Of a stretch of DNA of 64,000 nucleotides, positions 6,101 to 22,022 are shown in pieces (position 1 is the stretch's first letter; the number at the start of each line of letters is the position of its first letter). The position numbers and the translations under genes were made by a program. The notes under the pieces are model-generated. The model was given only the letters and a program-made list of their open reading frames with translations, ran no database searches and was not told where the DNA came from. Source of the DNA: Alphaproteobacteria bacterium (GTDB lineage Bacteria > Pseudomonadota > Alphaproteobacteria > Ferrovibrionales > Ferrovibrionaceae); contig JAFKFH010000004.1 of the NCBI GenBank assembly GCA_017307375.1, forward strand, positions 496,001 through 560,000. Reading direction: 5' to 3'.

Positions 6101-6630
6101 TCAATACCTTCGCCGACATGGCCCGCAGCCTCGGCCTGTCGCCCCAGCGGCACAAGATCGCCGGCTCGGTCATCGACCGGCGCGAGCGCATCTCGCAGAA
6201 GGGCAGCCGCTACGCCTTCGTCCAGTGCTCGGATGCGACCGGTGTCTACGAGGTCATGGTCTTTTCCGAGTTGCTCAACGCCCATCGCGACAGCCTCGAG
6301 GCGGGCAACCTGCTGGTCTTCGCCGTGGACGCGCAGTTGAACGGCGACCAGGCGCGGATGACCGTGCAGTCGATCGAGCGGCTGGACGAGGTGGCGGCCA
6401 AGGCGGCGGCCGGTGTCTGCATCTATCTCGACGACGTCAAGCCGATCGAGACGATCCGTACCGTGCTGGCCGGTGCCAGCCGGGGGCGGGGCCTGGTCAA
6501 GGTCAACCTGCGTCTGCCCGATCTCGGCGACCAGGTCGAATTCCAGATGAAGGAAATGTTTGCGATCACCCCCCAGGTGCGCGGCGCCCTCAAGGCCACG
6601 CGCGGGGTGGTCGACGTCCAGGAACTCTGA
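3169..6630 (+). CDS. dnaE: DNA polymerase III alpha subunit
   Basis: The replicative DNA polymerase catalytic subunit, 1153 residues, the usual length for DnaE1 in this group. It opens with the PHP domain (FVHLRVHTAYSLSEGA), followed by the polymerase core with the catalytic aspartates in PDFDIDFCQDRR, the GPGRGSGAGSL loop, the tandem HhH region (GFNKSHAAAYALVAYQTAYL) and a C-terminal OB-fold region (KIAGSVIDRRERISQKG). The frame is open for 360 bases upstream, over the cyclase gene, but ATG 3169 gives the conserved N-terminus. It is not DnaE2: length and the lack of an imuAB context argue against that. A GC-rich hairpin lies directly behind the stop. Confidence 0.97.
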   Translation: MPHAKFVHLRVHTAYSLSEGAIPVKKLVDLCKTAGMPAVAITDTNNLFGALEFSGAAMGYGVQPIVGCQLSITQDAPADEAAALVMKRDGRKPEPDPIVLLAQNQVGYGNLMALTSKAFLETPPGETPQVDFGFLGRHAEGLICLTGGAGGPVGRLVAAGQLPAAQALVQRYADLFPGRLYVEIQRHGTPLEKRTEAPMLDLAYKLDLPLVATNECFFADAGMYEAHDALLCIAQGTFVGVEDRRRVTPEHRFKSAAEMRELFKDLPEAVDNTLVIARRCAYAAPERKPILPRFAQGGLEGEAEALRQMSYDGLEKRFVELGITDEAQRKVYRDRLEFELSIIIKMQFPGYFLIVADFIQWTKSQGIPVGPGRGSGAGSLVAYALTITDLDPLRFSLLFERFLNPERVSMPDFDIDFCQDRREEVITYVQQKYGRDQVAQIITFGKLQARAALRDVGRVLQLPLGQVDRICKMVPNNPANPVTLKQAIAEEPRLQAERDQDESVARMMDIALKLEGLYRNASTHAAGVVIGDRPLVELVPLYQDPRSTMPATQFSMKYAEGAGLVKFDFLGLKTLTVLQRAVELIRRREEIDLATIPLDDKASYDLLARGETVGVFQLESTGMRDMLRQMKADQFEDIIALVALYRPGPMDNIPKYIACKHGREEPDYLHPWLEPVLKETYGVIIYQEQVMEIAKVLAGYSLGDADLLRRAMGKKIKSEMDAQKERFVTGAREKGVDPGRAAYIFELVEKFAGYGFNKSHAAAYALVAYQTAYLKANYPVEFLAASMTLDLGNTDKLNVFRQDLRRLDIPLLPPDVQESEVVFDVAMVEGKRSVRYALAAVKGVGPEAMAAIVEARKAGGRYKSLFDMACRVEPSKMNKRMLENLVKAGAFDSLEKNRARAFAAIEPMLRHGQAVAADRASNQNSLFGAPEAAPPPPMPDVDGWTPMDQLAKEFDAIGFYLSAHPLDSYATVLRRLGVNTFADMARSLGLSPQRHKIAGSVIDRRERISQKGSRYAFVQCSDATGVYEVMVFSELLNAHRDSLEAGNLLVFAVDAQLNGDQARMTVQSIERLDEVAAKAAAGVCIYLDDVKPIETIRTVLAGASRGRGLVKVNLRLPDLGDQVEFQMKEMFAITPQVRGALKATRGVVDVQEL

Positions 6631-20095: not shown

Positions 20096-20521
20096 ATGGC
20101 CGAGCCGCATGACGAAAACTGCGTCTTCTGCAAGATCGTGGCGGGGACGATCCCCAGCTTCAAATTGTACGAGACCGACGACGCGCTGGCCTTCATGGAT
20201 ATCAATCCGGCCAATGACGGCCACTGCCTCGTGATCGCCAAGGCGCACTATCCGACGGTGCTAAATCTGCCGCCGGACCTGTTCGCCCGGCTGGCGCCGG
20301 TCATTCACAAGGTGGCCGGTGCGGTCTGGCGCACGGTGCAGCCCGACGGTTTGAACCTCGTCCAGGCCAACGGCAAGGGGGCCGCCCAGTCGGTGCCTCA
20401 CTTCCATATCCATGTCCTGCCGCGGCGCCTCGGCGATCAGCTCGACTTCAACTGGATCCCGAAGCCCGGCGACATGACCAGGATCGGCGATCTGGCGGGG
20501 CGGATTCGCCACAACCTCTGA
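20096..20521 (+). CDS. HIT-family nucleotide hydrolase/transferase
   Basis: A 141-residue histidine-triad protein. The catalytic HxHxH is PHFHIHVLPR (His102, 104, 106), and a CxxC pair (Cys9, Cys12) near the N-terminus matches the zinc motif of HinT/Fhit-like branches. Members hydrolyse nucleoside phosphoramidates or dinucleoside polyphosphates. It follows the oxidoreductase by 44 bases and is followed by a strong hairpin. Confidence 0.9.
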   Translation: MAEPHDENCVFCKIVAGTIPSFKLYETDDALAFMDINPANDGHCLVIAKAHYPTVLNLPPDLFARLAPVIHKVAGAVWRTVQPDGLNLVQANGKGAAQSVPHFHIHVLPRRLGDQLDFNWIPKPGDMTRIGDLAGRIRHNL

Positions 20522-20551
20522 AGCGGCTGCCGTCGCGCCGGAGACGCAGCA

Positions 20552-20576
20552 AGGGAGGCGCTGGGGGCGCCTCCCT
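20552..20576. terminator. Strong hairpin behind the HIT gene
   Basis: AGGGAGGCGC (20552-20561) and GCGCCTCCCT (20567-20576) form a perfect 10-bp stem with a 5-base loop. It lies 30 bases after the HIT stop on the plus strand and at the end of candidate RNA A on the minus strand, so it may serve both. Neither side has a long T-tract. Confidence 0.6.
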
Positions 20577-20678
20577 CGACTTGGACATGAGTAAGTCTGG
20601 CGGGGCGGCTGCCGGAAAACCTCGACCGTCGGGGACCAGTCGGGGAGGGCGAGGTGGGCTCGGCAGCCACGTGCAGAT
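20552..20678 (-). ncRNA. Candidate LexA-controlled small RNA A
   Basis: Downstream of the minus-strand promoter at 20685-20713 there is no convincing reading frame, but there is RNA structure. An 8-bp perfect stem (GGCTGCCG/CGGCAGCC, plus positions 20607-20614 with 20661-20668) encloses a 5-bp stem (20620-20624 with 20650-20654), and the segment ends in a 10-bp hairpin (20552-20576). The predicted transcript is about 125 nt and carries C-rich unpaired stretches. The RNA itself is an inference from promoter, structure and hairpin; the start is estimated from the -10 box. Confidence 0.4.
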
Positions 20679-20683
20679 GCAGG

Positions 20684-20698
20684 GAACATAGATCGAAC
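20684..20698. promoter_or_regulatory. LexA (SOS) box overlapping the -10 of promoter A
   Basis: GAACATAGATCGAAC is a perfect GAAC-N7-GAAC, the reverse complement of the alphaproteobacterial LexA site GTTC-N7-GTTC. It covers the -10 hexamer of the minus-strand promoter, so LexA binding would block transcription. Confidence 0.75.
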
Positions 20699-20713
20699 AT
20701 TCCGACTCGTCAA
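20685..20713 (-). promoter_or_regulatory. Sigma-70-type promoter A (minus strand)
   Basis: On the minus strand, TTGACG (plus 20708-20713) is followed after exactly 17 bases by TATGTT (plus 20685-20690). It is sandwiched between two perfect LexA boxes. The start of transcription would be near 20678, reading away from rpsB. Confidence 0.6.
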
Positions 20714-20720
20714 GCGGTTT

Positions 20721-20735
20721 GTTCGGTCTATGTTC
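20721..20735. promoter_or_regulatory. Second LexA (SOS) box, upstream of promoter A
   Basis: GTTCGGTCTATGTTC is a perfect GTTC-N7-GTTC. It lies 7 bases upstream of the -35 of promoter A and, with the box at 20684, forms a 16-bp inverted repeat (one mismatch) with a 20-base spacer. It could alternatively serve a plus-strand promoter, but no good -35 is seen in that direction. Confidence 0.72.
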
Positions 20736-20883
20736 TGGTCGCTGCCGGATCCTCCGCCCGGGGAATGCCCAGTTCGCCACGTGACGGCCGAATCGCGGGG
20801 CCAGAGGCCGGCAGAGACCGTGGCGCGGGGACTCGCGATGTAGCGAATGGATGCTCGGCATGCAGCCGGCCCGGACAGCAGCA

Positions 20884-20909
20884 GGGGCGCCCCAGTGTCG
20901 AGGCGCCCC
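20884..20909. terminator. GC-rich hairpin within the 20522-21251 gap
   Basis: GGGGCGCC (20884-20891) and GGCGCCCC (20902-20909) form a perfect 8-bp stem with a 10-base loop. On the minus strand it ends candidate RNA B. No T-tract follows. Confidence 0.5.
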
Positions 20910-21006
20910 GTGACGTCGCTGTACTGTCGTCCTTAGGCTGTGCCGGCCTGCGACTGCCTGGATCCCCCGGAGAAGATCGAAGCCTTGATGCGGCCCGCGT
21001 GCGTAT
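20884..21006 (-). ncRNA. Candidate small RNA B
   Basis: Promoter B (21013-21041, minus strand) would start a transcript near 21006 that runs into the hairpin at 20884-20909 after about 120 nt. No start codon with a ribosome site appears in it, and the open frames across this stretch have arginine/proline-rich random composition. Sequence similarity to candidate RNA A is low except in the promoter and the bases after the hairpin (tgctgc). This is an inference. Confidence 0.3.
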
Positions 21007-21012
21007 GGTGAA

Positions 21013-21041
21013 AACATAACAAGAACGGATGGTGCCGTCAA
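21013..21041 (-). promoter_or_regulatory. Sigma-70-type promoter B with degenerate LexA-like boxes
   Basis: TTGACG (plus 21036-21041), 17 bases, TATGTT (plus 21013-21018) on the minus strand. A near LexA box, GTTCTCATTTTGTTT (21049-21063), starts 7 bases upstream of the -35, and another, AAACATAACAAGAAC (21012-21026), covers the -10. Each departs from GTTC-N7-GTTC at one position. The geometry is identical to promoter A. Confidence 0.5.
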
Positions 21042-21092
21042 CGGCTTTGTTCTCATTTTGTTTTCTCTCGCCGCCTTGCCGCCGCTTCGGAC

Positions 21093-21121
21093 TTGATCTG
21101 CCCCCGTTCCTCAGGTAGAAG
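21093..21121 (+). promoter_or_regulatory. Possible rpsB promoter
   Basis: TTGATC (21093-21098) and TAGAAG (21116-21121) are spaced by 17 bases, about 130 bases before the rpsB start. It is the best sigma-70-like pair facing rpsB in this gap. Confidence 0.35.
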
Positions 21122-21190
21122 GCGCCCACTTCAAACCCACACGCGGGGAGCGTGGCGGGCCGCGTTTGTCGCGCGCTCCGTCCTTCCGGT

Positions 21191-21207
21191 GTTCCCATGA
21201 TGGGAAC
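21191..21207 (+). promoter_or_regulatory. Inverted repeat in the rpsB leader
   Basis: GTTCCCAT (21191-21198) and ATGGGAAC (21200-21207) form a near-continuous palindrome 45 bases before the rpsB start. In the leader RNA it could fold as a short stem-loop. S2 is known to control its own mRNA in other proteobacteria; a role here is inferred. Confidence 0.35.
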
Positions 21208-21251
21208 CTAAATCCCCGCGGCGGCCAACCGGAGAAAAGGACTCTCTTATT

Positions 21252-22022
21252 ATGGCTCTTCCCGTCGTGAATCTGCGCCAGCTGATCGAGGCCGGCGCCC
21301 ATTTCGGTCACCAGACCCATCGCTGGAACCCGAAGATGGCCTCCTACCTCTATGGTTCGCGCAACGGCGTCCATATCATCGACCTGCGCCAGACCGTGCC
21401 GATGCTCGACCGCGCGCTGAAGACCGTGCGCGACGTCGTCGCCGGCGGTGGCCGCGTCCTGTTCGTCGCCACCAAGCGCCAGGCGTCCGAGCCGATCGCC
21501 GAGGCTGCCCGCAAGTGCGGCCAGTACTTCGTCAACCATCGCTGGCTCGGCGGCATGCTGACCAACTGGAAGACGATCTCGGTGTCGATCCGCCGCCTGA
21601 AGGAGCTGGACGAGAAGCTCTCGGGCGATCTGGGCTCGCTCGGCCTGACCAAGAAGGAACTGCTGCAGCTGACCCGTGAGCGCGACAAGCTCGAGCGGGC
21701 GCTCGGCGGCATCAAGGAGATGGGCGGCCTGCCCGACATCCTGGTCGTCATCGACACCATCAAGGAAGACATCGCGGTTGCCGAAGCCCGCAAGCTCGGC
21801 ATTCCCGTCGTGGCCGTCGTCGATTCGAACTCGGATCCGGCCCCGATCACCTACCCGATCCCGGGCAACGACGACGCGCTGCGCGCCATCGGCCTGTACT
21901 GCGACCTCTTCACCGCGGCCGTGCTCGACGGCATCCAGGCCGACATCTCGGCCCAGGGTGGCGATGTCGGTGCTGCCGCCGAGCTGCCGGCCGAGCCGGC
22001 GCTCGAAGAAGCCCAGGCCTGA
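21252..22022 (+). CDS. rpsB: 30S ribosomal protein S2
   Basis: Ribosomal protein S2, 256 residues, normal length. It begins [20 protein letters not shown] and has the conserved RWNPKM and [14 protein letters not shown] segments. It opens the cluster that runs to lpxB and is followed 30 bases later by tsf, the usual pair. Its 5' leader is long and contains an inverted repeat. Confidence 0.98.

Follow-up and report, generated by a model that had tools for sequence, protein, structure and literature searches.

IstR-2 of Escherichia coli is a stand-alone RNA made from a LexA-controlled promoter beside the tisB toxin gene. Here we describe two putative small RNAs (sRNAs), A and B, on the minus strand of the gap between a HIT gene (20096-20521, plus strand) and rpsB (21252-22022, plus strand) in a stretch of 64,000 nucleotides (nt) from an Alphaproteobacteria bacterium (the window; assembly GCA_017307375.1, contig JAFKFH010000004.1, positions 496,001 to 560,000 of the forward strand). 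Both would be LexA controlled; in contrast to IstR-2, no small toxin frame was found at A or B. LexA-controlled regulatory RNAs outside toxin-antitoxin pairs seem few. One of them, DinR of Klebsiella pneumoniae, rises with DNA damage, is cut from the dinI mRNA, and targets ftsZ (PMC10907235); in the accessible part of that report, no sRNA gene beyond dinIR appears among Hfq-enriched genes with an SOS box. A and B resemble DinR in their predicted LexA control, but each has its own promoter and no recognized gene upstream on that strand. We therefore rejected both an origin in a 3' untranslated region and, given also the unremarkable ftsZ duplex energies reported below, a DinR-type sRNA (i.e., one processed from the 3' end of a LexA-controlled mRNA and pairing with ftsZ). 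ChvR of Caulobacter crescentus (84 nt) is likewise an alphaproteobacterial, damage-induced sRNA with its own promoter, but it is driven by ChvI-ChvG and lacks an SOS box, and the accessible part of the same report places an SOS box near none of nine mitomycin-induced Caulobacter sRNAs (PMC6237742). A literature search (titles and abstract openings among the matches listed, with subscription journals mostly outside its reach) found no LexA-regulated sRNA in Alphaproteobacteria. The LexA-controlled sRNA is a known kind; what would be new here is that the pair is stand-alone and alphaproteobacterial and belongs to a family not in Rfam.

We favor, with a probability of roughly two in three, the reading that A and B are a lineage-restricted, LexA-repressed, stand-alone pair of paralogous sRNAs with a conserved 5' seed. 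It is supported, at the level of sequence, by LexA-type operators of the genome's own motif, the promoters, a footprint in related genomes, and the lack of a shared reading frame; from these we infer the transcription, induction, ends, and pairing function of the two RNAs. In this reading, A arose from B by local duplication, and each has a sigma-70 promoter with its -10 element inside a LexA operator. Judging from sequence and comparison, LexA would occupy the -10 and, in this genome, also a box upstream of the -35, where the second operator probably strengthens repression. DNA damage would then remove LexA and release a noncoding RNA of ~125 nt. RNA B would begin at or beside CAUACGCACGCGGG and terminate near a GC-rich hairpin; its exposed, conserved 5' end would be the active part, pairing as a seed with one or more target mRNAs, and its body would serve as scaffold and terminator.

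Whether the pair amounts to an undescribed family of primary, LexA-repressed, trans-acting sRNAs in Alphaproteobacteria, in which a 15-nt 5' seed is the sole conserved RNA part and which is tandem duplicated in one species, we regard as evenly balanced. If so, the SOS response would have an RNA arm in a class in which Caulobacter, according to the accessible part of the report on its damage-induced sRNAs, reportedly has no SOS box at these genes. The alphaproteobacterial SOS response could be tested directly for an RNA branch through a stand-alone pair whose 5' end is precise and conserved. The pair would also be a case in which selection appears to act on little more of an sRNA gene than its operator, promoter, and initial ~15 nt.

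Promoters and LexA-type boxes in the gap

The initial annotation had placed two minus-strand promoters of the form TTGACG-17-TATGTT in the gap, each with one LexA-type box over the -10 and another 7 bases upstream of the -35. The sequence and a sigma-70 scan bear out promoter A (20685-20713) and promoter B (21013-21041, with a TG preceding the -10), which were the only sigma-70-like sites in 20300-21300 (0.1 expected from shuffles). A box scan likewise recovered all four boxes. Box A1 (GTTCGATCTATGTTC; 20684-20698, minus strand) covers the -10 of promoter A, and box A2 (20721-20735, plus strand) lies upstream of its -35; both are exact. Box B1 (GTTCTTGTTATGTTT; 21012-21026, minus strand) covers the -10 of promoter B, and box B2 (21049-21063, plus strand) lies upstream of its -35, each with one mismatch. 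The measured distances agree with the claimed geometry: the 7-nt spacing is identical at A and B, and the paired boxes start 37 nt apart at both. Each promoter is thus overlapped by a GTTC-N7-GTTC operator (exact at A, one mismatch at B), which the accessible part of a published account gives as the LexA motif of the class Alphaproteobacteria (PMC8565304).

Judged one at a time, such boxes are weak evidence. The window contains 42 boxes with at most one mismatch (40.6 expected), and the genome contains 148 exact boxes (65 + 83) versus 88 (29 + 59) for the reversed control. Because single boxes are near the chance level, we compared those at A and B with known LexA sites of the same genome (G000; other genomes are labeled G001, G006, etc., and loci carry L numbers). 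Family searches found one LexA (above the PF01726 cutoff) and one RecA (above its cutoff) in G000, and lexA and recA each have an upstream LexA box. Boxes also precede uvrB (E = 2e-33), a PA0069-type radical-SAM gene (4e-23), a UDG-linked radical-SAM gene (2e-54), a PcrA/UvrD-like helicase gene (9e-26), and two imuA-like genes (4e-4 and 4e-6). G000 therefore has LexA together with the same operators at its recognized SOS genes. Apart from recA and lexA, the genes were scanned against families with their first 110 residues alone, so all of these scores lie under the curated cutoffs.

A LexA matrix was trained on the eight boxes at these DNA repair and SOS genes, with the boxes of A and B left out. 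Only the recA and lexA boxes had been obtained independently (i.e., by family search). The other six were retained, because a recognizable DNA repair or SOS gene lay downstream, from 20 inspected loci that had been chosen mostly for A/T-rich spacers among the matches listed (100 of the 148 exact boxes). Among the ~128,000 positions of the window, the matrix ranked B1 first, B2 second, A1 third, and A2 fifth. Their scores (15.2 to 18.7) fall inside the span of leave-one-out scores obtained for the known sites (11.3 to 22.2). The exact paired-box pattern occurred in one of 385 genomes sampled from the class, namely G000. Given these ranks and this rarity, the likeness to the SOS sites of G000 and the pairing of the boxes exceed chance. 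With up to three mismatches, the paired pattern occurs at 16 places in G000 (control, 6); the B pair (two mismatches) is not rare by itself, since three other places match equally well.

Two observations concern the known sites themselves. At lexA (L127, ~1402-1441), an exact box is followed 25 nt further by a box of opposite orientation with one mismatch, which recalls the double-operator layout of A and B. The two imuA-like genes (G000:C3:55508, L053; G000:C5:496868, L076; weak partial matches) each have their own LexA box and possibly mark two mutagenesis cassettes.

Footprint of the element in related genomes

The order equals the family here and comprises 18 genomes (i.e., G000 and 17 others). 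We scanned the loci upstream of rpsB in 19 relatives (L003 to L021; 16 in the family) for the promoter and boxes; one locus, L009, offered merely 128 nt upstream of rpsB, and genome G014 yielded no rpsB locus. The only positive was G001, from the same family and another genus, which has a minus-strand promoter upstream of rpsB with a perfect box over the -10. Five nucleotides past the -10, G001 and B of G000 have CATACGCACGCGGGCC in common, which we take as the conserved 5' segment of RNA B (20992-21007, minus strand).

A pattern consisting of the -10 and this segment, with up to three mismatches, was found in 4 of the 18 genomes of the order (G000, G001, G006, and G009; reversed control, 0), G006 and G009 matching with one and two mismatches, respectively. 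Both also have the complete box, although five of its eight letters lie outside the search pattern. The box over the -10 is perfect in all three relatives that have locus B (i.e., the operator is kept), and the RNA start CATACGCACGCGGG is kept at 14 to 15 of 15 positions in them. Counted in register, B and G001 agree at 15/15 positions of the 5' segment, 22/35 of the promoter, 22/59 upstream, and 15/45 and 16/50 of the body; for B and G006, the corresponding counts are 14/15, 20/35, 11/59, 8/45, and 15/50. By these counts, conservation covers the operator, promoter, and initial ~15 nt, and the remainder is near random. G006 and G009 share one genus and are hardly independent of each other; because they are alike throughout (upstream, 55/59; promoter, 30/35; 5' segment, 15/15; body, 40/45 and 48/50), the pair is uninformative on selective conservation. 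Conservation in close relatives, which the initial annotation had proposed as a check, therefore extends to the -10 box and the initial ~15 nt but not to the upstream box.

Beyond the family, a stricter pattern including the box matched one of 385 class genomes, again G000; 5 of the genomes sampled belonged to the 18-genome family, and none of the 380 from outside the family matched. An exact search of the GTDB named collection with the box, the -10, and a loosened 5' segment returned three records, corresponding to G009, G001, and G006. Plasmids gave no match. Viral contigs gave four exact matches to the seed pattern, which showed no promoter or box by eye and were taken as chance. The element therefore appears, as far as the patterns used can see, to be lineage restricted. 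A model (R1) built from the five known copies scored these at E = 7e-9 or better, which is circular, and so R1 informs on the other 14 family genomes only.

Copy A was found in none of the 17 other family genomes searched with R1. In fixed register, the 5' end of putative RNA A (CATCTGCACGTGG; 20667-20679, minus strand) shares 10 of its 13 nt with that of RNA B, an agreement reached by 130 of 200,000 random pairs, and so A is probably an old local duplicate of B. As whole units including the boxes, A and B align better than all of 500 shuffles, which preserved mononucleotide but not dinucleotide composition. Regarding the earlier proposal of tandem, SOS-induced sRNAs under LexA boxes, LexA control and stand-alone transcripts are supported by the genome's own SOS motif and by the footprint in three genomes. 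The tandem, double-box design is not general: of the two boxes, the relatives retain the one at the -10, and tandem copies were found in G000 alone among the 18 family genomes.

Putative transcripts and candidate targets

From a start inferred from the -10 to the end of a hairpin, putative RNA A would span ~128 nt (20552-20679) and putative RNA B ~124 nt (20884-21007), both on the minus strand. The initial annotation had described strong hairpins ~120 to 125 nt after the promoters with no credible reading frame between. The hairpins of A (20552-20576, 31 nt beyond the stop of the convergent HIT gene) and B (20884-20909) are borne out by sequence and folding, but neither has a U-tract. At a similar distance, the G001 copy has a strong hairpin followed by TTAATTTT, a T-rich tail. 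A (20545-20679; z = -4.8), B (20876-21006; z = -2.4), and the G001 copy (z = -3.7) all fold better than shuffles. Minimum-energy folds leave the 5' end free over nine nucleotides in G001 and G006, over five in A, and over four in B; the centroid fold of G006 pairs its nine. The five RNAs do not align past the 5' end, the covariation term is unfavorable (+0.32), and the 6 of 13 consensus pairs changed on both sides rest on an unreliable alignment. No Rfam family matched above its gathering score anywhere in the window.

As for coding potential, RNA B has no frame of at least eight codons from ATG, GTG, TTG, or CTG, which upholds the earlier statement for B. In RNA A, open frames run into the hairpin, yet they are not common to the other copies. 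The frames in A, G001, and G006/G009 show no relation to one another, apart from those of G006 and G009, and stay open to the end of the segments compared. No reading frame is common to all copies, and the short conserved frame of a type I toxin mRNA was thus not found.

Two candidate targets of the 5' segment were examined and found no support. For ftsZ, the duplex energies were equaled or surpassed by 253 to 297 of 300 control windows in four tests (A and B of G000, G001, and G006), and G009 gave no ftsZ match. For the rpsB leader, as good or better control windows numbered 258/998 for B, 627/988 for A, 33/991 for G001, 85/985 for G006, and 127/992 for G009; the nominally low G001 value was discounted because G006 and G009 choose a different leader site. 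The leader itself resembles the rpsB leader RNA RF01815 (21138-21246, plus strand; 36.6 bits, below the cutoff of 40). By eye, it has the 8-mer CACGCGGG in common with the 5' segment of RNA B, but it is a plus-strand leader of rpsB and so lies on the opposite strand. In G006 and G009, the leader counterpart of this 8-mer is CACGCAGG. By eye, the family loci compared also have the closing stem of the leader, CACGC(G/A)GG...CC(C/T)GCGG, in front of rpsB.

Weighing the explanations and the genomic neighborhood

Several observations weigh against a LexA-repressed sRNA pair with a conserved seed. The complement of the 14-nt segment, searched in four genomes with up to one mismatch, was found only at the locus itself and at a single one-mismatch site in G001; with a perfect complement at the locus alone, any pairing with a target would be shorter or imperfect. 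No T-run follows the hairpin of A or B, and the terminator scan calls a terminator at neither, which leaves the 3' ends uncertain; transcription from B might even read through towards A. The G006 RNA folds no better than shuffles (z = -0.6), and the RNA bodies are not conserved between B and G001 or G006. In a free alignment after the -10, A and B are no more alike than shuffles (144 of 500 as good). The upstream box has five to six mismatches in the three relatives, with nothing better than three mismatches within 80 nt. Fourteen of the 18 family genomes, several of them incomplete, have no convincing copy (best R1 E value, 0.05). Finally, two of the genes behind the matrix match ImuA weakly and over part of its length (E = 4e-4 and 4e-6).

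Some of these points are what one would expect under the chief rival, which we consider unlikely: the LexA promoters are real, but the 15 bp conserved downstream of the -10 work at the level of DNA, for example as a binding site for another regulator or as a promoter-tuning initially transcribed sequence, and the RNA is functionless. Conservation limited to the promoter and about +1 to +15, the unremarkable fold in G006, and the failure of the searches with the seed complement, ftsZ, and the rpsB leader to yield a target all fit this account. It is opposed by the strong hairpin and T-rich tail that the G001 copy has at a similar distance and by the lack of a recognized same-strand protein gene after A or B before the convergent HIT gene, since a promoter whose RNA did nothing would lack an evident product. 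Another rival is that the promoters make short mRNAs for small proteins of the TisB or SidA type under LexA control. Damage-induced small membrane proteins are known from E. coli (TisB) and Caulobacter (SidA, named in PMC10907235); the missing frame in RNA B and the mutually unrelated, stopless frames of the other copies make this explanation very improbable.

The boxes at B could instead regulate the divergent rpsB-tsf operon, with the minus-strand RNAs as by-products. Box B2 does lie upstream of rpsB, and at a locus of another family (L031, in G029) the rpsB motif is preceded at 189 nt by an exact plus-strand box, GTTCCGTTTACGTTC. We nevertheless give this explanation very little credence: conservation falls on the box at the minus-strand -10, the element adjoins the 3' end of dnaE in G006 and G009 and lies ~2.8 kb from rpsB in the latter, and 14 other family loci upstream of rpsB have no exact box. 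Just as improbable, and already disfavored, is a functionless chance cluster of LexA-like words. Single boxes with one mismatch do occur at the chance level in the window, but matrix ranks 1, 2, 3, and 5 within one gap and a footprint in three genomes are hard to reconcile with chance. A LexA-repressed pair of sRNAs with a conserved 5' seed remains the reading that we prefer.

In all three relatives with locus B, the element is located past the 3' end of dnaE, towards which it would be transcribed; a family search identified dnaE in G006, and likeness identified it in G001, G009, and the window. In G001, a small minus-strand frame of glyoxalase/VOC type (by eye) separates the element from dnaE. 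The rpsB gene is directly next to the element in G001, ~2.8 kb off in G009, and on another contig in G006. In the window, dnaE ends at 6630, so the order dnaE-element-rpsB is kept, with genes inserted. The dnaE of G009 (L094, ~13-2654) seems to be split into two overlapping frames in a metagenome-assembled contig, by a sequencing error or a frameshift. Elsewhere in G000 (G000:C29:13551, L086), a LexA-type box, GTTCTTGTTTTGTTC, lies ~150 bases before a gene whose start resembles endolysins of the gene transfer agent/phage type.
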